Below, piece after piece: positions 10,772 to 23,055 of a stretch of 64,000 nucleotides of DNA. Origin of the DNA: Candidatus Scalindua sp. SCAELEC01 (lineage in GTDB: Bacteria > Planctomycetota > Brocadiia > Brocadiales > Scalinduaceae); NCBI GenBank assembly GCA_004282745.1, contig SHMT01000024.1:1-64000 (forward strand), written 5' to 3'. Every line of letters starts with the position of its first letter. Positions within the stretch are counted from its first letter, which is position 1. The translations under genes and the position numbers were made by a program. Below the pieces are notes generated by a model. That model was not told the origin of the DNA, ran no database searches, and was given only the letters and a program-made list of their open reading frames with translations.

Positions 10772-12355
10772 CTAATTCAATCCGGTAAATACCGCCTCTC
10801 CAAGCCCCGTTAGCGGATTCAGAAAATCTCTCTCGAACTCGGCCCGGGTCATGACGGGGGCGTTCTTAAATCCTGCACGTACGGCAGCCTGACGTGCTTT
10901 CTCTGAATTAATGAGACTGAGATTTGCCGGATCTCGCACCACTACCAACTCTCCCGTTGGAGTAGGAATAATCCCGTCAACAACCACCGCATGCTGGCCG
11001 TTTAAGCCAACGATGGCCGGATCACCCTTGCTGGTAGCAGCCGCCAGCTCGTCAAAGGTAACCCTTTGCAATCCCTTATGGGGTATCTGCATCTCGCTGA
11101 GAAGTTTTGGAACAGTTTCGGGAAGTGTACGTCCGCCGAAGTATTTGTCCGGTGCAATACCCTTGGTGATACCTTGATACCACTCCTCTGGGTAAGAGAC
11201 ACCTTTCTGGGTCTCATGAACCATCTTCACGCAGGCCTGAACGCACGATTGATCTTTCTGTTGGAGGTACGTGGGCCGTGGACGAGAGTTAATGGCAGGA
11301 GTCAGTTTGTCTCCAGGGGGTAGTTGTGCCTTCCAGACCTGTTCGGTTATGATTACTTCACCGATACTCGTAGGAGGAGGTGGAACATCTACAATTGGTC
11401 TGTGCGGTTTAGGAGGCGCACTCTTCAAAGGTGGAGGAGGAGCAAACCCACTTTCATCCGGACGGAAACGTGGGGGTGGAGAGTGATCAATGGAAGGCTT
11501 TTTCGTTAATTGAGGAGTTTTCAAATCATCAGTCAACTTCGGAGGAGCCCCCACCTCCTCAAGTAAACTACCTGAACGGCTGCCTATGTTCCCGACACCT
11601 CCCCCAATCTCATCGACTGCTCCCGTCCCCTTCACTGCTGCGCCCCCGGCACCCTCCGCAAGTTCATCGACAGCTCCCGCCGCCTTGGTAGCCCTTACCC
11701 AGGGTAACCCCTTAACAAGATAACTCAAACCAGCCTCGCCGAGGGTCGCTGCAACCATTTCAAAGGCCACCTTGTGGCCGGTACCCTTTTTGGTCATATC
11801 AAAGTCAGATGACTCTTCAAGAAAACTGTCGATAGCGAACAATACCGGAATCTTATCCAGAGCGTGATCGAGATTCTCTGCCCAGTCCCTGACCCTCCTC
11901 TTGAACCCCTTATCGGCGCCCAGCAGTTCCGCCTTTACTGCATGCTCGATGGGATCTCCCTTATCGGTGTAATCATCGGGAGTGATGACCCGATCAAATC
12001 CCAAGGTACTATTCACACACTCCTGATAGTTGTTCATAGCAACAGTACGTTCTACACTTTTGGCATTCGCTATTTTCACCATCGCAAGTCTCGCCTCTCT
12101 GGATTTATCGAGGTGATGGTGTGGGTGCAATTCCAGCGTCTCCATTTCAAGGATAACCGCATCCCGGAGGTATGACAGGCAAGTTCTTCCTTTGTATTCA
12201 GTCCGCTTCTGTTTCTCCTGCTCTTCGGGGGGTAACTTATAGAAGTTGTCAAGGGTTTGACAGGCCCACCCGATGCACTCTCCCACCTCATGTGCCTGGG
12301 ATTGAATCGATATAAAGAAGAGGATTAACGGTGCTATCAGAAACAATATTTTCAT
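10772..12355 (-). CDS. Secreted protein with C-terminal papain-like (C39-like) domain
   Basis: A signal peptide (about residues 1-22, ending SQAHE) is followed by a helical region, a glycine-rich hinge, a proline-rich linker (about 280-345) and a C-terminal domain resembling bacteriocin-processing C39 peptidases. That domain has QQKDQSCVQACVKM (candidate catalytic cysteine), GQHAVVVDGI (candidate histidine) and VVRDP (candidate aspartate). This fold cleaves peptides, or in some secreted proteins crosslinks or deamidates targets. There is no transporter gene nearby, so it is not an obvious bacteriocin exporter. AAGGAG precedes the ATG at a good distance. The modular build resembles secreted toxin or adhesion-processing proteins; function is unknown. 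Confidence 0.7.
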   Translation of the reverse strand: MKILFLIAPLILFFISIQSQAHEVGECIGWACQTLDNFYKLPPEEQEKQKRTEYKGRTCLSYLRDAVILEMETLELHPHHHLDKSREARLAMVKIANAKSVERTVAMNNYQECVNSTLGFDRVITPDDYTDKGDPIEHAVKAELLGADKGFKRRVRDWAENLDHALDKIPVLFAIDSFLEESSDFDMTKKGTGHKVAFEMVAATLGEAGLSYLVKGLPWVRATKAAGAVDELAEGAGGAAVKGTGAVDEIGGGVGNIGSRSGSLLEEVGAPPKLTDDLKTPQLTKKPSIDHSPPPRFRPDESGFAPPPPLKSAPPKPHRPIVDVPPPPTSIGEVIITEQVWKAQLPPGDKLTPAINSRPRPTYLQQKDQSCVQACVKMVHETQKGVSYPEEWYQGITKGIAPDKYFGGRTLPETVPKLLSEMQIPHKGLQRVTFDELAAATSKGDPAIVGLNGQHAVVVDGIIPTPTGELVVVRDPANLSLINSEKARQAAVRAGFKNAPVMTRAEFERDFLNPLTGLGEAVFTGLN

Positions 12356-12551: not shown

Positions 12552-14051
12552 CTAGTTTAAGCGTGAAATAGCCAGCTTTAAAAGCCCAATCAGTTTGTCG
12601 GTATCGGCGGGTTTTGGCGCCATAGGTGATCGTGCGAATGCCTCCCAATATATGTCGAGAGTACTGTTACCCAAGAGGGCCCCCACCTCTAACTTTCGCA
12701 GATTGTTACCGCCATAGTGCAAGTAGGCGTCATCACCAATACCTTTCACATGAGTCCATCCTTGGCTCTTAGAATGTATATCCCAACCCCTCTTTACAGA
12801 ACCTATCGTTCTCAAGAAAAACGTTATTCTAACTTTACCATGGCCCTGCATATTCACAAAATGGCAAGTGGACTGCTGCATCTCGCCCTTGCCATCATCG
12901 GTGGTCACAACCGTTTTTGTGACCGTGAAACCTAAGTGTTGCTCAATCTCGGCTTCTGAAACCAAACAGGGACCGGTGACGGGTAACGACGGTGTGTTTC
13001 CGCTAAGAAATGATCGCCACGACTGGCGAATGGCAGATTTTTGGCCACTAACGCCACCTTTGTTGCTCGTAATCACACCCTTGATTTCCTCTTCAACCTT
13101 TCCGAAAAGCCCCTTTTTCCCGGACCCCTGATTCCCCGAACCCAGGTTATCGGAACCCGAGTTACCGGAATCCGAGCTACCTGAATTCGATCTGTCAGGA
13201 ATAGGTAATGGGCTGATGCCGCTGTAGCGGCTATACATCAGGTGTGCAAGCTCTGTTAGCTTTGGCAGATCATCCATTGTCGCTTTCGGTTTGAGATAGA
13301 GCGTGATCTCAAACCTAGCACCCGTAAAAGCCTTGCTGCTCTCGTCCCGCGTCTCCTTTTCCAGTATGTCCAGTTTAAGCAGTCTGTTTCCAGACAGGGA
13401 TGCGTAGGCGGTGTCGGCAAGCCCGGGAACGTCAACGGGGGAGTCTGCACCGTTCCGCTTTCGGTTAAATGAGTTAGAGATAGCGCCGATAGAGGCATCT
13501 GTCTTTATTCTGTTGATCCGTATATCCACTCGGTCGAAGCTGCTGAACTGCGAACCGAACTTACACCCTTCCGTTGCCACTCCGGATTTGATTGCAAAGG
13601 CTGTACCGTCTTTCACCGGCGCATCAAGCACGATCGACACCTCCTCAGGAGTCAAAAGACCGCAATCTCCACCGATGCTGGCAATACTGTTTTGTGGTTG
13701 GTCTGGATACCAGACACGTTTCCATACACCCGGTCCCAGTTTACCCGTTGCCTTCCAGGTGTCTGCATCGGGTAATTCATATGCCCCCCCATCCTCCCAC
13801 TGGGGAGAGCTGAGTGACCATCTATCACTGGTTGCCTCGAACCTTCCACGATGCATTACTTTCGGGTCCTGGCCGTGTATTCGATAGTGTCCGTCTGCTC
13901 TTACCACCCAGTAGAGGTCCCAATTGATGCCGTCGAGCTTCCATGTCCCCACGAGCCGCGAATCTACTCCACCCTGCGACAGATCCGAACAAACGATTAC
14001 GAGGATAAATACACATGTTAACATTAAGGCAAAGCGGAATGTGGATTTCAT
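12552..14051 (-). CDS. Secreted protein with an internally duplicated domain, function unknown
   Basis: The protein has a signal peptide (residues 1-27, through SDLSQGG) and then a small beta-rich N-terminal region starting LVGTWKLDG, similar in style to lipocalin-like domains. Two related domains follow, one beginning CGLLTPEEVSIVLDAPV (about 130-265) and one beginning CLVSEAEIEQHLGFTV (about 360-497). They are separated by a Gly-Ser-Asn-rich linker and a basic segment. Each copy has an early cysteine and a second one in a C-X-F context, suggesting a disulfide. The pattern recalls DUF3558-type extracellular domains, but I am not certain. A good ribosome binding site (AAGGAG) precedes the ATG. 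Confidence 0.6.
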   Translation of the reverse strand: MKSTFRFALMLTCVFILVIVCSDLSQGGVDSRLVGTWKLDGINWDLYWVVRADGHYRIHGQDPKVMHRGRFEATSDRWSLSSPQWEDGGAYELPDADTWKATGKLGPGVWKRVWYPDQPQNSIASIGGDCGLLTPEEVSIVLDAPVKDGTAFAIKSGVATEGCKFGSQFSSFDRVDIRINRIKTDASIGAISNSFNRKRNGADSPVDVPGLADTAYASLSGNRLLKLDILEKETRDESSKAFTGARFEITLYLKPKATMDDLPKLTELAHLMYSRYSGISPLPIPDRSNSGSSDSGNSGSDNLGSGNQGSGKKGLFGKVEEEIKGVITSNKGGVSGQKSAIRQSWRSFLSGNTPSLPVTGPCLVSEAEIEQHLGFTVTKTVVTTDDGKGEMQQSTCHFVNMQGHGKVRITFFLRTIGSVKRGWDIHSKSQGWTHVKGIGDDAYLHYGGNNLRKLEVGALLGNSTLDIYWEAFARSPMAPKPADTDKLIGLLKLAISRLN

Positions 14052-14135: not shown

Positions 14136-14163
14136 TTGACATCAAAAACATACTTTATATAAT
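14136..14163 (+). promoter_or_regulatory. Consensus sigma70 promoter
   Basis: TTGACA (14136-14141) and TATAAT (14158-14163) are both perfect and 16 bases apart. The ATG of the next gene begins 10 bases after the -10 box, so the transcript should start almost at the start codon. Confidence 0.75.
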
Positions 14164-14490: not shown

Positions 14491-17400
14491 TCAATGCGTT
14501 ATGGTGAATGAGCCACTCGCCACTTTTTTCCCTTCGACAGTAATATCGACGCGGTAGGTACCGGCCTCCCAGTTCCCGGGCTGACCCCAACCATACCCGT
14601 GAAAATGGGTAGATGAGCTCCTGCCCGGTTGAATGGAGAACTCCCTCGTCTGACGTATGATTATGTCTCCGTGAGGGCCGTAGTACTCTGCCGTTACGCT
14701 GAAATAGCTCTTACGGTTCAGGGGGGGGAACGTAAGGCTCAACTCCCAATTTATGTTCCTCGTTGTAGACCTGGGGAAACTGGTTCCATACCCACCCTGA
14801 CCAGAGGGTTTCCAGCTATTTCCCGTCTCATAGAAACGTAACCCCACTAACCTTGCATTAATGGACGGTATAACGATGACCTCACTCTCTGAGACCATAC
14901 GAGGGTTATGTATCGGCTTGGAGTCCACAGCTCCCCCTCTCTCTTGCAGCTTACGTCCACTCTCTGCACTTTTATTTATCTGTTCCACGTCCCTGAATTC
15001 TCCCACATCCTCCTGCCTTGCACTCGTAGGGCTATTTTCAAGTGGTACATTTCCCGATGTTACGGTAAAGGACCCGCTTGCCACTCGTTGACCATCGATA
15101 GAGAGCTCTACCCGATAGCTGCCCAACCTCCAGTTTCCAGGCTGATTCCAGCCATATCCTGAATTGTGGTACGAGGAGCTCCAACCCGGTTCGATATTAG
15201 ATTGCCTCACCCACTCTTTTACCACATCTCCATGTGGATCGTAATATTTTGCCGTTATGTCAAACACTCTCTTCCGATTCAGCTTGGAAAAGGCGAGGGT
15301 GATCTCCCAGTAGATGTACCTTGCACCAGACTGGGGAAAAACGGTTTGATATGTTCTCTCTCCATACGGTCTATCTTTCGATCCGCTCTCATAAAAGCGC
15401 AGCCCTGTGACAGAGCCATTAATCGATGAAATAAAGTCCTCTTTTTCTCCTGTGGGTCTATTGAGATCCTTGACCGGCTTTGAGGGTGCCTCTTCCTGAG
15501 AATCCTGCGGCTTTTGCAGGTCGAGTCTGTTTTTGTCCACACCCTCTCTGCTCTCTGACACCAGAGTATCGGCCCCGCTCGAACTCGACTGATCACTCTT
15601 CGATGACCTGTGGAGCTCCGCGAGAAACTCTGCATCAACCTTATGGCCGAGATCCACCGCCCTCTCTACATCCTCCAGGGCTTTACGGAACCCACCACTC
15701 TCTTTGTGAGCAACTCCTCGGTTATAGTAGGCAAGGGCATACGAAGAATCGAGTTCGATGGCTTGAGTCAAATCGGCTATCGCCTTCTCATACTCCCCTT
15801 TTACTATATAAAGGCCTCCCCGGTTGTGATAGACAACAGCCTGTGCCGACCCCAATTTTATTGTCTGTGCATAATCGGCTATCGCTTTATCGTACTCACC
15901 TCTGCTGCGATAGGCGTTTCCCCGCTGATAGTAGGCTTGGGCATTCTTGGGATCAATCTTTAAAACCCGATCAAAGTCGCTAATGGCTTTGTCAAACTGA
16001 CCTTTTCTGTAATAGGCGAGGCCCCTCTGATTGTAGGCATCTCCAAACTCAGGTTCAAGGGCAATTACCTTGGTAAACTCCACAATGGCATCATCCCACA
16101 GTTTCTCATCCATACGGGCTTGCCCTTTTGCAAAATCGGAAAATGCGTCGAGAGAGAGAGAAGCGGTTTGCTCCTTTCCCGATTGCTTTGCCGATGTATT
16201 TTCCGGTGTTTTTCCCGAACCCTTTTCCGCAGCCTTTCTGATCTTCTCAAGTAACGCTGGATCCACCTTCTGCCCAAACTTCACTGCCTTCTCTAAATCC
16301 TCCAGGGCTTTATCGTAGTTACTTTTCTTAATATAGACCCGCGCCCGGTTGAAGTAGGCGAGCGGATACTTGTACCTCTGCTTTATGGCCTGGTCGTAAT
16401 CGGAGATCGCTTTATCATCCTCTCCCTTCATTAAATAAGCGTTCCCCCGGTTGAGATATGCCAGAGCATACTTTGGTTTGAGTTTTATCGCCTCCGTATG
16501 GTCGGTTATCGCCCTGTCGTACTCACCTTTGGTATAATAGACATAGCCCCTGTTGTTATAAGGGTCGGCGTACTCCGGTTCCAGTTTAATGGCGTAGGTA
16601 TAGTCGGCAATCGCCTTCTCATTCTCTCCCTTTCTTCTATAGGTAAGTCCCCTGTAGTTGTAAGGAACAGCAGACTTTCGCTTGAGTTTAATGGCCTGGT
16701 CGAATTCGACGATCGCCTTATCATACTCCCCTTTGTTAGAGTAGACAAGGCCGCGGCCGTAGTAGGCCTCCGCATACTTCCGATCAAGGCCGATGACCTT
16801 GTCAAAGGCCACAATGGCCTCATCCCACCTCTTTTTTTCCCCATACACCACACCGTCAAAGTAACGGGCATCCGCCTGAATAGTCTTCGGAGCGCCCTCT
16901 CCCGAGACCATACGGAGCTTCTCGATAAGCTTCTGGTCCATAAAACCGCTCTTCTTCTGTACCGTCAACAGGTCCTTCCACGCCTTGCCGTATTCACCTG
17001 CCTCATAATAGGCTTTTGCCCGTTTTTCGTGGGTAGAGCCGCCAAATAGCGTATCAAAGTTCAAAATTTGTGGTTGCAACTCTATAGCCTGCGTGTAGTC
17101 GTCAACGGCCTTCTCGTACTCTTTGATGTTGTAGTAGGCATCTCCCCGTTTAAGATACGCATCAACAAACGTGGGCCGATATTTAATGCCCTTCCCGTAA
17201 TCCTTCACCGCACTGTCATACTCCTTTTTTTTGTCATACGCCTTCCCACGGCTGTAATAAGCCTCCGCATGTTTCCGATTCAGGTCGATGGCCTTGCCCA
17301 ACTCCGCAATGGCCTTATCCCACTCCTTTTTTCTCAGATACTCCATACCGTCATAGCAGTGGAGGTCCGCCTGAAGGGCCTTTGCGGCCTTCTCTCCCGA

Positions 17401-20142
17401 TACCTTGCGGAGCTTTGCAATAAACTCCTTATCCACCCCTCCGCCCAACTCCCGTATCCGCAGCACATCCTTCCACGCCTTACCAAATTTAGCTCTCTCA
17501 TAATAGGCCTTTGCCCGTTTTTTATAGGGCCCAGAAAGACCAAAATTAGCAATAAAATAACCCAAGTAGGGCTCTAACTTTATGGCCTGCGTGTAGTCGG
17601 CAATTGCTCTCTCATACTCGCCCTTGTCGGAATAGACATCTCCCCTCTCTTCATATGCATCTCCAAACTTGGGGTTATATTTAATGGCCTTCCCATAATC
17701 CTTCACCGCATTGTCATACTCCTTTTTCTTAGCATACGCCATCCCACGGTTGTAGTAGATGTCTGCATTCTTGGAATCGTGTTTGATTGCCCTCTCAAAC
17801 TCGGCAATCGCCATATCCCAGTTCTTTTTCTTATAATACTTTTTCCCTCTCTGAAAATAGGTTTCTGCCTTGTCTCCCTGAGGAGGCTCCACTCCCGAGG
17901 CCTCGCGGAGCTCATCGAGAAGGTCCAAATCCACCACTCTACCCAGATCAACCGACTTCTCTATATCCTCAAGGGCCTTACTGTCGTCACCGATTTTATT
18001 GTGGGCAAGTCCACGATTAAAGAATGCGTCTGCAAACTTGGGTTTCAGTTTTATTGCCTGGGTATAGTCAGCTATCGCCTTCTCATACGACCCTTTTTGA
18101 TAATAGGCCTTCCCCCTGTTATTATGGGCACCAAAATTTTTTGGATTAAGTTTTAGGACCTGAGTATAATCGGTAATAGCTGTGTCGTACTCACCCTCTT
18201 TGAAATAGCTCAACCCTCTGCTGTTATAGGCGTTTGCAAATTCTGGTTTGAGCTCGATAGCTCGGTCGTAATCGGCTATCGCCTTCTTGTACTTCTTTTT
18301 TTCTCGATAGGCATCTCCCCTATAATAGTATGCTTGTGCATCTTCAGGTTTGAGCTTAATGATCCGGGAATAATCGGCAATGGCTTCATCATACTCTCCC
18401 ATTACGGAATAGGTGCTGGCCCGAATTGAGTAAATTTCAGTATCTTTGGGTTTGAGTTTAAGGGCCTTGGTGTAGTCTGCGATCGCCTTCTCATCCTCTC
18501 CTAAGTCAAAATAGAAGTCACCCCGCATAAGATAGAGTTCCGCATCCTTGGGCTTAAGCTGTATGGCTTTATTATAATCCGCAATAGCCAGTTCATCCTC
18601 ACCCATCCAAAAATAGGCATCCGCCCGTATGAGATAGGCCTCTGTCTCCTTGGGGTTGAGCCTAATGGCCTCTGTATAATCGGCTATCGCCTCTTCATCC
18701 TTGCCCTTATCGAAATAGGCGTCTCCCCGGGCGATGTAGAGATCAGGATTTTTGGGGTCACGCTCTATGGCGTTGGTATGGTCAGCAATTGTCTTGTCCT
18801 TACCTTTTTCGGAGTTAAAAAAATCGATAATTTTCTTATCAATCCCAAACAGTGAGGTATCCGGACCCTCCTTTTTGAGGGCAAGCTCCCGATTCCGTTT
18901 CGCAGACTCAAGCTTTGGATTGAGCTGTATGGCCTGATCGTAATCGGCAACGGCCTCCTTATACCGCCCCTTTTTATGATGTGCCAATCCCCGGTTGTAA
19001 TAGACATTCGTATACTTGGGACTGATCTTTAAGGCCTCGTCATAGTCTCTGATGGCCTTACCATACTCACCTTTATAGTAGTGGGAATAGCCCCGACCGA
19101 AATAGGCATTTACATCATTAGGATTAATTTTTATGCACTCGGTATAATCTGATATCGCCTTCTCATACTTCCCCATCTTGTGATAGGTAAGCCCCCGACT
19201 GTAGTAGACATCGGTATACTCGGGTTTAAGGTTTAAGGCCTGATCGTAATCGGCAACTGCCTTGTCATACCTACCTTTTTCAAGATGGATGAGGCCACGG
19301 TTATAGTAAGCTAGGACATCCTTGGTGTTGAGTTTTATGGCCTGTCCGTAATCGGCAACCGCCTTCTCATCCTGACCTTTCATCTCATACGCTAAACCAC
19401 GACTGATATAGGCATCTGAATCTTTAGGATTAAGGGCAATAGCCTTGGTAAACTCAACAATCGCTTCATCCCACTTCTCGTCATGAGAATAATCCATCCC
19501 CTTTTCAAAATGAATGTCCGCATCGTTTACTGTAGGAGCTTTCCTCTTCGGCAGCATGCCTCCGTACGTTATGGTGAAGGTGCCGCTGGTTACTTTTTGG
19601 TTGTCAACAAAAATATCTACCCGGTAGGTACCTGTTTCCCAGTTACCCGGTCTCTTCCAACCATATCCATGGTGATGATGATACCCGGTCCAGCCCGGTT
19701 CAATGTGACCTTGTGTTGTTAAGCGTGTCATGAAGTTTCCGTGGGGATTATAGTATTTTGACACTATGTTAAAATAGGTGGTCCGGTTTGGTTTGGGGAA
19801 AGTTATCTTAAGCTCCCAGTATATGTACCGGCTAGCAGATTTTGAGAAAACGGTGCTATAATTTCTCTTGCCGTGTGGTGGCCCAGAAGCATCACCTTCA
19901 TAAAAACGTAATCCCGTTACCTTGGCATTGAGTGACGAAATGTATTGCCCATCGCATAAAGATGGTTGCGCCGTTAAGAGCAGTGTGAAGAGGCAAAGCC
20001 AGAAACCGTAACATACACATCCTGTCCGAAACCTGCGAACAGATAGAGACTCAGATCTCACCTGTTTTTCGATCGTTTTGATGCGTGGAGTGATGAGGGA
20101 AGTTGCTACTGGATCTTCCGATGAAAGATGGTGATTCTTCAA
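14491..20142 (-). CDS. Giant secreted TPR protein with three copies of a beta-rich domain
   Basis: The 1,883-residue protein starts with TTG, supported by AGGAGG six bases upstream. A late signal-like helix (about residues 42-64, ending PSLCDG) follows a 40-residue polar N-terminus. A domain of about 125 residues occurs once at residues 70-193 and twice more at about 1572-1693 and 1761-1883. Its hallmarks are GLRFYE, NR, YY.PHG, GYGW..PGNW, G.YRV and SG.FT.T. Between them lie some 35 tetratricopeptide repeats of the AYY.RG..Y..KGEYDKAIADY type, with a longer period of about 165 residues in the middle. TPRs bind other proteins, so an extracytoplasmic scaffold is likely. The beta-rich domain is not one I can name. 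Confidence 0.85.
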   Translation of the reverse strand: MKNHHLSSEDPVATSLITPRIKTIEKQVRSESLSVRRFRTGCVCYGFWLCLFTLLLTAQPSLCDGQYISSLNAKVTGLRFYEGDASGPPHGKRNYSTVFSKSASRYIYWELKITFPKPNRTTYFNIVSKYYNPHGNFMTRLTTQGHIEPGWTGYHHHHGYGWKRPGNWETGTYRVDIFVDNQKVTSGTFTITYGGMLPKRKAPTVNDADIHFEKGMDYSHDEKWDEAIVEFTKAIALNPKDSDAYISRGLAYEMKGQDEKAVADYGQAIKLNTKDVLAYYNRGLIHLEKGRYDKAVADYDQALNLKPEYTDVYYSRGLTYHKMGKYEKAISDYTECIKINPNDVNAYFGRGYSHYYKGEYGKAIRDYDEALKISPKYTNVYYNRGLAHHKKGRYKEAVADYDQAIQLNPKLESAKRNRELALKKEGPDTSLFGIDKKIIDFFNSEKGKDKTIADHTNAIERDPKNPDLYIARGDAYFDKGKDEEAIADYTEAIRLNPKETEAYLIRADAYFWMGEDELAIADYNKAIQLKPKDAELYLMRGDFYFDLGEDEKAIADYTKALKLKPKDTEIYSIRASTYSVMGEYDEAIADYSRIIKLKPEDAQAYYYRGDAYREKKKYKKAIADYDRAIELKPEFANAYNSRGLSYFKEGEYDTAITDYTQVLKLNPKNFGAHNNRGKAYYQKGSYEKAIADYTQAIKLKPKFADAFFNRGLAHNKIGDDSKALEDIEKSVDLGRVVDLDLLDELREASGVEPPQGDKAETYFQRGKKYYKKKNWDMAIAEFERAIKHDSKNADIYYNRGMAYAKKKEYDNAVKDYGKAIKYNPKFGDAYEERGDVYSDKGEYERAIADYTQAIKLEPYLGYFIANFGLSGPYKKRAKAYYERAKFGKAWKDVLRIRELGGGVDKEFIAKLRKVSGEKAAKALQADLHCYDGMEYLRKKEWDKAIAELGKAIDLNRKHAEAYYSRGKAYDKKKEYDSAVKDYGKGIKYRPTFVDAYLKRGDAYYNIKEYEKAVDDYTQAIELQPQILNFDTLFGGSTHEKRAKAYYEAGEYGKAWKDLLTVQKKSGFMDQKLIEKLRMVSGEGAPKTIQADARYFDGVVYGEKKRWDEAIVAFDKVIGLDRKYAEAYYGRGLVYSNKGEYDKAIVEFDQAIKLKRKSAVPYNYRGLTYRRKGENEKAIADYTYAIKLEPEYADPYNNRGYVYYTKGEYDRAITDHTEAIKLKPKYALAYLNRGNAYLMKGEDDKAISDYDQAIKQRYKYPLAYFNRARVYIKKSNYDKALEDLEKAVKFGQKVDPALLEKIRKAAEKGSGKTPENTSAKQSGKEQTASLSLDAFSDFAKGQARMDEKLWDDAIVEFTKVIALEPEFGDAYNQRGLAYYRKGQFDKAISDFDRVLKIDPKNAQAYYQRGNAYRSRGEYDKAIADYAQTIKLGSAQAVVYHNRGGLYIVKGEYEKAIADLTQAIELDSSYALAYYNRGVAHKESGGFRKALEDVERAVDLGHKVDAEFLAELHRSSKSDQSSSSGADTLVSESREGVDKNRLDLQKPQDSQEEAPSKPVKDLNRPTGEKEDFISSINGSVTGLRFYESGSKDRPYGERTYQTVFPQSGARYIYWEITLAFSKLNRKRVFDITAKYYDPHGDVVKEWVRQSNIEPGWSSSYHNSGYGWNQPGNWRLGSYRVELSIDGQRVASGSFTVTSGNVPLENSPTSARQEDVGEFRDVEQINKSAESGRKLQERGGAVDSKPIHNPRMVSESEVIVIPSINARLVGLRFYETGNSWKPSGQGGYGTSFPRSTTRNINWELSLTFPPLNRKSYFSVTAEYYGPHGDIIIRQTREFSIQPGRSSSTHFHGYGWGQPGNWEAGTYRVDITVEGKKVASGSFTITH
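14498..14530 (-). repeat. Second copy of the 33-bp coding repeat
   Basis: It encodes the last strand of the third beta-rich domain of the TPR protein and matches 14085-14117 with two mismatches. Confidence 0.7.
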
Positions 20143-20404: not shown

Positions 20405-22519
20405 TCACCTGATAGATCCGGCCAGCCGGACCAGGTTGATGAATTCATGCCGGTACCCATACGGGTCTTTCCCCGTTGCAGACTCCGCCAGTTTGATAAC
20501 GTCTCCGTAGGTGAACTGAGCCGTAAAGGTACCGCCCCGCAGAAGCTGCCCGAATGCCGCTACCGATGCGGCAAATCGGATATCGGCAGGGACCTGATCT
20601 ATCCGTGAATACTCATTTTCACGATTAATTGGCGTCTGAAGCAGTTCGCTCTTCTCCGAATCGGGTAATTTATAGCGGATCTTCAAGTAGGCATACTCAC
20701 CCTCCATTGATCCAGTTGTCGCCGCTTGCTCCTCCTTGTCGGAATAGCGCAGGTCATCAACTAGTTTACCCTTACTCGTACTGGGCGTAATCTCATAGAT
20801 TGCCGTTACTGAATGCCCGGACCCAATATCTCCCGCATCAACCTTGTCGTTATTAAAGTCCTCCCGTTTCAACATGCGTGACTCGTACCCTATCAAACGA
20901 TACTCAGCCACAAGTTTTGGATTGAACTCTATCTGTATCTTGACATCTTTTGCAATCGTAAAGAGTGTTGAGCTCGCCTCGTCCACCAGGACCTTTCTCG
21001 CCTCATTGAGGTTGTCAATGTATGCGGCATTCCCGTTTCCATTTTGGGCAAGTTTCTGCATCAGGGCGTCATGATAGTTTCCCTGACCAAATCCAAGGAC
21101 GGAGAGGAAGATGCCCGTTTCCCTTTTTCTCTCGACAAAACTCTTCAACTCTTCGGGGTCGCGAATACCGACATTAAAATCTCCATCGGTGGCAAGTATC
21201 ACCCGGTTAAGGCCATCTTTCGTGAAATTGGCCTCTGCCAGCTCATATGCCTTTCTGACTCCTTCCCCTCCTGCGGTCGAGCCTCCCGCCTGCAATTGAT
21301 CCAGGGCCGCTAAGATCTTTCCTCTCTCGTTTCCCTTTGTCGGCTCTAAGACCGTACCTGCCGCCCCGGCATAGACGACGATAGAGACCGTGTCATCTTC
21401 ATCCAGAGTGTTGACGAGTAATCGGAAGGAATTTTTCAGTAGGGGTAATTTGTCATGTGAATTCATCGAACCTGAGACGTCTATGAGAAAGACCAGGTTT
21501 GAAACCGGTTTTTCCTCCGGGACAATATCATATCCCTTTATCCCTATATGCAGCAACCGGGTATCCGGGTTCCAGGGAGTTTGGTAGAGCGCAGTGGTTG
21601 GCTGAAATGGTCTGCTCTTGTCTGCAGGTACGGAGTAGTCGTAGTCAAAATAGTTGATCATCTCCTCTACCCGCACCGCATTTTTTTGTGGAAGCACACC
21701 GTTATTCAACTGTCGGCGCACAAAGGCGTATGATGCGGTATCAACGTCCACAGAAAATGTTGAAACCGGCTCCTCCGATACCAGCTTAAGGGGATTGGTA
21801 ACAATGGTCTCAAATTTGTCCCGACCGACATCTTTATACTCATTTGATCGATAATCATCAGCTGGAGCTTGAAGAGAGTAAGAGGCACCTCGACCTGCAC
21901 TCTCCGGACGCCTCTTTGCCATCGTTTTTGCCATCGATCTCATTGGTTTTGTGGCTATAATTGAAGGATTCTTCAAGGAATCAGCATCAGTAAAACCTTC
22001 GGTTTCTTTATCTGCTTTGGCTGTTACAGAACCTAACTCTCTCTGCTCTGTTGGGTTCACTGGCAGTTTCTTAACGATCAACTCCTCAAGAATGCTGTCA
22101 TCCACAAACGTATCATGACGGGGCACTCCTTCATTTTTCTCTGCCTCATCCCTCTCTCTTATCTCCGCTCTTCCGCCAGCACTTTGTGAAACTGGTTCCT
22201 GTTCTGTTGAGACCCTCATCATGAGTGATGGTCCCATAAATACCGAGAAATATACAACTAAGAGAGCGACAAGGGCGGTAGCACCCCCCGTAATAATAAA
22301 CGACTTCTTCATGGCAAATTCTCCTAAAAAGGTAAAAAATGTTTTTGTTTTACCCCTTAGACGCCGTTCCTCTTCAATTCCTTTGAAATTTTTTTGAAGA
22401 GAGAGCTTTTGTTGATGAAATTCCGTCATAACGGCTTTTATGGTAGCCTTTTTCTTTATTTCATCCGGTTCCGGGATCTCCACTCCCTGCAAGATTTTGT
22501 TTATCTCTTCATCCTTCAT
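20405..22519 (-). CDS. VWA domain protein with anti-sigma-like membrane anchor (YfbK-like)
   Basis: The protein begins with a cytoplasmic segment (MKDEEINKILQGVEIPEPDEI) and a single membrane helix near residues 73-95, the layout of a sigma-factor-binding anchor. After a disordered stretch come a vWF-N-like region (MINYFDYDYSVP), a von Willebrand A domain with the metal-site motif DVSGSMN, and a C-terminal DUF3520-type region (LRYSDKEEQ, ADIRFAASVAAFGQLLRG), as in E. coli YfbK. Its ATG overlaps the sigma factor TGA (ATGA), so the two are translationally coupled and probably form a sigma/anti-sigma pair. The VWA part would face outside the cytoplasm and bind proteins through a metal. Confidence 0.88.
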   Translation of the reverse strand: MKDEEINKILQGVEIPEPDEIKKKATIKAVMTEFHQQKLSLQKNFKGIEEERRLRGKTKTFFTFLGEFAMKKSFIITGGATALVALLVVYFSVFMGPSLMMRVSTEQEPVSQSAGGRAEIRERDEAEKNEGVPRHDTFVDDSILEELIVKKLPVNPTEQRELGSVTAKADKETEGFTDADSLKNPSIIATKPMRSMAKTMAKRRPESAGRGASYSLQAPADDYRSNEYKDVGRDKFETIVTNPLKLVSEEPVSTFSVDVDTASYAFVRRQLNNGVLPQKNAVRVEEMINYFDYDYSVPADKSRPFQPTTALYQTPWNPDTRLLHIGIKGYDIVPEEKPVSNLVFLIDVSGSMNSHDKLPLLKNSFRLLVNTLDEDDTVSIVVYAGAAGTVLEPTKGNERGKILAALDQLQAGGSTAGGEGVRKAYELAEANFTKDGLNRVILATDGDFNVGIRDPEELKSFVERKRETGIFLSVLGFGQGNYHDALMQKLAQNGNGNAAYIDNLNEARKVLVDEASSTLFTIAKDVKIQIEFNPKLVAEYRLIGYESRMLKREDFNNDKVDAGDIGSGHSVTAIYEITPSTSKGKLVDDLRYSDKEEQAATTGSMEGEYAYLKIRYKLPDSEKSELLQTPINRENEYSRIDQVPADIRFAASVAAFGQLLRGGTFTAQFTYGDVIKLAESATGKDPYGYRHEFINLVRLAGSIR

Positions 22520-23055
22520 AGGGATTCTCCTCGTTCTAAATTCCTCTTAAGCGCTCTTTTTGCCTGGAACACTCTCCAGGAGACGGTCTTCTCTGCGCAG
22601 TTGAGGATGGCTGCCGCCTCTTTGTGGTTCATTCCCTCACTAAAGACCAGGAAAGCGGTCTCTTTCAACTTCTGGGGAAGATTTTCAATCATCTGGTGTA
22701 CTCTTTCTGCTAGGGAGGATTCTTTCTGCTGCTGAATGCTCGTTTTTCTCTCTTCAATATAGGCGCTCTCTTTTTTACGCTTTCTCTCGTTCATCTTGGC
22801 AAGGTCTTTGGCCGTATTAATGGCTATTCGATAGAGCCAGGTCTGAAACGTTGACTCCTCTTTAAAGTACAAGATGTTTTTTGAAAGCTTCATAAACACC
22901 TCCTGAGTCACGTCTTCCGCATCTTCTTTCGTTCCGCACCACTTATAGGAGATCGTATATACGAGCATATAGTTTCGTTCAACCAGATTCTCGAAGGCGG
23001 TCGGATCTCCCTCTTTGGCACGGATAACTAATTCACTCTCTTTGAGATTCTCCAT
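22516..23055 (-). CDS. ECF (RpoE-type) RNA polymerase sigma factor
   Basis: This 179-residue protein has the two ECF regions: sigma2 (about 10-80) with DAEDVTQEVFMKL and FQTWLYRIAINTAKD, and sigma4 (about 120-170) with LPQKLKETAFLVFSEGMNHKEAAA and the helix EKTVSWRVFQAKRALK. It directs transcription in response to a signal relayed by its anti-sigma partner, most likely the coupled downstream VWA protein. No strong ribosome binding site is visible before the ATG. The upstream 590 bases hold the promoter region and a family A repeat. Confidence 0.93.
   Translation of the reverse strand: MENLKESELVIRAKEGDPTAFENLVERNYMLVYTISYKWCGTKEDAEDVTQEVFMKLSKNILYFKEESTFQTWLYRIAINTAKDLAKMNERKRKKESAYIEERKTSIQQQKESSLAERVHQMIENLPQKLKETAFLVFSEGMNHKEAAAILNCAEKTVSWRVFQAKRALKRNLERGESL

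Follow-up and report, generated by a model that had tools for sequence, protein, structure and literature searches.

A giant TPR protein of Candidatus Scalindua flanked by predicted Ig-like domains: a candidate exported scaffold

Introduction

What is the function of a domain that a giant protein of Candidatus Scalindua sp. SCAELEC01 carries once before and twice after a long array of TPRs? The question was raised by a sequence-only reading of 64,000 nt of contig SHMT01000024.1 (the whole of this stretch is hereafter "the window"), which described the domain as beta-rich, could match it to no known family, and proposed an extracellular scaffold with sticky ends. The biofilm matrix of anammox bacteria matters for wastewater treatment, and the large exported proteins of these bacteria are poorly annotated; the TPR/Ig-like protein may be one that scaffolds the envelope or the matrix. 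Both TPR proteins and Ig-like sandwiches are well known, whereas the domain family is missing from the libraries searched. The Scalindua protein adds modestly to annotation and does not represent a system of a new kind.

Protein architecture

The TTG start of the gene (Table 1) is preceded, 6 nt upstream, by the Shine-Dalgarno sequence AGGAGG. The three domain copies (D1, D2 and D3) share 52-53% identity with one another over ~127 residues, with E values in the D1 search far beyond chance, and the same search found no further copy in the window's genome. The coordinates first proposed for these copies were right within a few residues, and the initial count of ~35 TPRs compares with 34 in our own repeat model, distributed over residues 208-411, 432-737, 759-903, 925-1068, 1090-1293 and 1333-1502. 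These tandem 34-residue repeats belong to the TPR family (PF00515, 752 bits over 30 stretches, above the Pfam cut-off); scores to the NCBIfam equivalogs MamA, PilW and NlpI reflect generic TPRs and not orthology. At the DNA level, the array includes segmental duplications of ~495-498 nt that are 63-74% identical to the reference copy.

The N-terminus appears hydrophobic and signal-like by eye, with a recognizable counterpart in the sibling species (G001, see below), which suggests that the protein is probably exported. The n-region of this segment is unusually long (~40 residues) and similar in the sibling (NHHLSSEDPVA.. / NYHFSSGVPLA.., then RSESL...GC..YGFW). A long TPR array and a signal-like N-terminus are also features of exported bacterial TPR scaffold proteins, but the Ig-like flanking copies set this protein apart, and no family name fits it as a whole.

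Table 1. Features of the TPR/Ig-like gene and its neighbors in the window, and selected proteins carrying the domain in other records.
Feature	Record	Position	Strand	Remarks
499-aa protein, hydrophobic N-terminus, downstream neighbor	window	12552..14051	-	63% identical in sibling G001, neighbor there too
TPR/Ig-like protein gene, 1883 aa	window	14491..20142	-	open frame from TTG; orthologue of 1000 aa in G001
Domain copy D3, residues 1757-1883, very C-terminus	window	14494..14874	-	E 1e-41 in search with D1
Domain copy D2, residues 1570-1697	window	15052..15435	-	E 3e-46 in search with D1
TPR array, 34 repeats in six blocks	window	15637..19521	-	repeat model built from the protein
Domain copy D1, residues 67-194	window	19561..19944	-	sequence search and AlphaFold2 model
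Export signal-like segment, residues 1-64	window	19951..20142	-	N-terminal, long charged n-region; letters RRFRTGCVCYGFWLCLFTLLLTAQPSLC followed by DG; by inspection
VWA protein of YfbK type, 704 aa, upstream neighbor	window	20405..22519	-	Pfam YfbK_C, vWF_A, VWA
ECF sigma factor, upstream neighbor	window	22516..23055	-	Pfam Sigma70_r2, r4_2; 4-nt overlap with VWA gene
Five tandem copies	L037			
Two copies	L036			lipoprotein-like protein
Three copies after bacterial Ig-like repeats	L038			
Three copies, then C-terminal region	L012			C-terminal region without assigned family
TIR domain, membrane segment, one copy	L015	7323-8360		TIR_2, E 1e-18
TIR match, then two copies	L040	347-1750		TIR match weak; no obvious membrane segment

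Predicted fold of the flanking domain

An AlphaFold2 model based on 16 sequences confidently predicts the flanking domain to be an Ig-like beta-sandwich of eight strands (mean pLDDT 95.9, pTM 0.87). The strand number and the matches to several Ig-like sandwiches fit a two-sheet Greek key, in agreement with the "beta-rich" character first read from the letters. The best-conserved positions are F33, R39, G95, W96, G100, W102, G105, Y107 and F123, and the GYGWxxPGNWxxGxY loop is among the most conserved stretches. This loop resembles the "tyrosine corner", a structural element of Ig-like sandwiches, and may serve stability instead of binding.

A fold search with this model returned the C-terminal sugar-binding domain of Wzt as top match (TM 0.63 with 8dky) and the matrix protein RbmA, both in the TM ~0.5-0.6 range, along with GH2 beta-sandwiches. 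Together with several conserved aromatic residues in loops, the Wzt and GH2 matches could be taken to indicate that the flanking domains are glycan-binding modules and the whole a lectin-like matrix protein. We consider this unlikely, as matches of equal strength were obtained to AlkC and to two binders of lipid-modified proteins, RhoGDI and UNC119, and identities across the fold matches are ~11-17%. For Wzt itself, the likeness is that of a top-ranked beta-sandwich (TM ~0.6), whereas there is no sequence relation, and both the ABC-transporter context and the sugar binding belong to Wzt. Since the matches span so many unrelated functions, the fold does not give the function.

Relation to DUF3859

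Searched copy by copy against Pfam and NCBIfam, no single domain copy scored over any cut-off, so that the initial failure to name a family stands at this level. The closest family was DUF3859 (PF12975), to which 13 of 31 copies gave weak Pfam matches (best E 7e-4). The curated cut-off of this family is 24 bits, and both the best single copy in the window (D2, 19.2 bits, E 0.0012) and the genome search (18.5 bits) fall below it. Added up over copies, the scores come to 26.3 bits for D2 plus D3, and the sibling gives 28.8 and 32.2 bits; as whole-protein sums these lie above 24 bits, a value that no single copy attains. Comparing our profile (hhalign) to one of true DUF3859 members, taken from another phylum, gave a probability of 69-71% and an E value of 4e-5 (best of 20 column-shuffled controls, 0.12), over only 38 columns at the C-terminal end; an alignment over the whole domain was not obtained. 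The member profile in turn matched 3n6y (PA1606) at E 6.5e-19, which identifies this entry as the solved DUF3859 structure, and a Foldseek search with our own model retrieved 3n6y in sixth position (E 7.8e-5, 127 columns, TM 0.49-0.50, rmsd ~6).

On these models, the Ig-like fold is common to the domain and 3n6y. Taken together, the weak Pfam matches, the partial profile match and the independent fold match point to DUF3859 as a distant relative, which does not thereby make the flanking domain a DUF3859 member. Hence, the domain that the sequence-only reading could not match to a family can be placed as Ig-like and distantly related to this one. The two share an Ig-like beta-sandwich (3n6y is annotated as "immunoglobulin-like protein"), a similar length and a C-terminal end alike in sequence (G.Y/W...V...g..lA.k.F.V), but DUF3859 has neither the N-terminal hallmark LRFYE/FFE nor the GYGWxxPGNW loop of the flanking domain, and the members retrieved are mostly small single-domain proteins. 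In the literature searched, we found no paper naming DUF3859 and none describing the function of PA1606. An Ig-like family missed copy by copy in current libraries now has a profile and a confident model, and is tied to a family itself without known function.

Macroglobulin-type Ig-like domains (MG2, PF01835) also matched D2 weakly in the same C-terminal half, and the profile of DUF3859 has a weak hit in a thioester protein, but the MG2 match (E 0.03) is far below cut-off and the window protein lacks a thioester protein context. A hint of S-layer similarity (8qox, a Sulfolobus S-layer protein) appeared at E 0.032 with a seven-copy profile and was gone with the 31-copy profile. Single weak matches to SEF14 adhesin, pertussis S1, CsgH, ClfB and expansin were taken as chance.

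Conservation of the layout and proposed role

The nearest named relative, Candidatus Scalindua sp. RBC_AMX3, is G001 of the genome collection (JALDRB01), where it is listed under the same genus. Its orthologue presents one domain copy before and two after an array of 12 TPRs, amid the same flanking genes. Between the two species, identity at the same position is 77% for D1, 69% for D2 and 76% for D3, vs. 48-58% between copies at different positions, and in a tree the pairs D1/D1', D2/D2' and D3/D3' are recovered with good support. As each copy is closest to its same-position counterpart, the one-before, two-after layout is older than the species split. The dN/dS ratios between the window and G001 (Nei-Gojobori) are ~0.14 for D1, ~0.21 for D2 and ~0.18 for D3: all three copies are under purifying selection, and the layout is kept while the length of the TPR array changes, almost threefold in number (34 vs. 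12). The internal duplications noted above favor some growth of the window's array.

The sequence-only reading had made its case dependent on homologues sharing the domain copies, and these are present in the homologues. Its symmetric build is thus retained in a second Scalindua species, but is not a general rule: a second G001 protein (L010, 766 aa) has a single copy followed by 14 TPRs and none after, and the domain copies seen outside Scalindua come without TPRs. The N-terminus of this paralogue is lipocalin-like (weak match).

The reading we favor, with a probability of about one half, is that of an exported scaffold. Its body would be the TPR solenoid, of changeable length and binding partner proteins, while the one sandwich in front and the two behind would be fixed modules for attachment or recognition that link the solenoid to further components of the envelope or matrix, whether protein or glycan. 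What we computed here is the anatomy, predicted fold, conserved placement, selection and TPR variation; we infer export, partner binding by the TPRs, ligands of the Ig-like copies and the role itself. Support comes from the D1-TPR-D2-D3 order, which is the same in G001 despite the difference in repeat number, from the signal-like N-terminus and its counterpart there, from the pairing of the copies and the selection on them, from the predicted sandwich, whose fold matches include binders of sugars or partners (Wzt, RbmA), and from relatives of the domain behind signal-like or lipoprotein-like N-termini. Points against it are the many unrelated functions among the fold matches, the possibly structural role of the conserved loop and the relatives joined to TIR domains (see below). 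The proposal of an extracellular scaffold with sticky ends remains a plausible inference.

Alternatively, the flanking domains could shield the two ends of the solenoid as structural caps or spacers and have no partner of their own. Ig-like domains often act as spacers, and the strongest conservation falls on structural-looking residues (F33, G95, W102, G105 and Y107). We regard this as very unlikely, because one copy before and two in tandem after the array is more than a cap needs, and the domain also occurs in proteins without TPRs, some of which contain little else.

As to the niche of the favored exported scaffold, a different anammox surface protein, Brosi_A1236, has been reported to consist of Ig-like folds (PMC7482068). 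This makes such a niche plausible by analogy, not by homology, and is no evidence for the TPR/Ig-like protein.

Distribution and architectures of the domain

Overall, 34 copies of the domain were collected from at least five phyla, occurring singly or as two to five in tandem (examples in Table 1). Within the order (62 genomes searched), the domain is present in the two Scalindua genomes and in no other. It was detected in 9 of 392 genomes of the window's phylum (one by a weak partial match), in 2 of 125 and 1 of 338 for the phyla of a Cloacimonadota and a Verrucomicrobiales genome, respectively, and in 2 of 4 for the phylum of G418; the phylum of an Anaerolineaceae genome yielded 1 of 301 at full length plus six weak partial matches. 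Three copies come from a "Deltaproteobacteria" record assigned to Myxococcota by the tree tool. The distribution is rare and patchy. A viral or plasmid origin was considered and set aside, as phage and plasmid records gave no match to the domain.

Relatives of the domain are found as tandem copies in proteins with signal-like or lipoprotein-like N-termini. TPR partners were seen only in Scalindua, which makes the symmetric build local to this genus. Two relatives are linked to TIR domains, and since one of them has no obvious membrane segment, the domain is not always extracellular. These TIR-linked relatives offer a lead on what the domain recognizes, and it is tempting to speculate that the domain is a mobile recognition module, built by bacteria into exported scaffolds (here on either side of a TPR solenoid) and also, as the sensor, into TIR proteins, with one Ig-like family serving surface assembly and TIR signalling alike, although we hold this broader view to be quite improbable.

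Gene neighborhood

The ECF sigma factor, VWA, TPR/Ig-like and 499-aa genes lie side by side on the same strand in each of the two Scalindua genomes. They could form an envelope-stress or signalling unit, in which the TPR/Ig-like protein would pair with the VWA protein in the periplasm and be co-regulated through the sigma factor. Another genome of the order (G014) likewise has a TPR protein, albeit a different one, downstream of its VWA gene. The ECF-VWA pair, however, is conserved across the order without the TPR/Ig-like gene: among four other genomes with the pair, unrelated genes adjoin it in three (G006, G019 and G021), so that the link to the TPR/Ig-like gene is at the genus level only. 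For the same reason, a Bat-like or sigma-factor-linked system was rejected. Further points against a VWA partner are the absence of the domain from the order outside the genus, the location of the Scalindua paralogue elsewhere, gaps of 262 and ~400 nt between the VWA and TPR genes, and a weak promoter-like site in the window's gap that is no better than chance, and we consider such a partnership doubtful.

For the 499-aa neighbor, no Pfam or NCBIfam family was found and the structure prediction is uninformative (pLDDT 44). In the gap between this gene and the TPR gene lies a perfect 12/12 match to a sigma-70-type promoter (TTGACA-16-TATAAT, + strand, 14136-14163), antisense into the TPR gene; the promoter scan as a whole gave no more sites than shuffled sequences.

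The genes between positions 10772 and 23055 each have a GC content of 45-51%, vs. 41% in the rest of the window, and GC is partly raised in the sibling cluster as well; foreign origin and expression-linked codon use are both candidate sources. The same region encodes a 527-aa protein (10772-12355, - strand) whose N-terminus is signal-like. Searches of Pfam, NCBIfam and the PDB assigned this protein to no family, and only a similar fragment is kept at the sibling locus. By eye, its C-terminal part has the look of a papain/C39-type peptidase (SCVQACVKM ... GQHAVVVDG).
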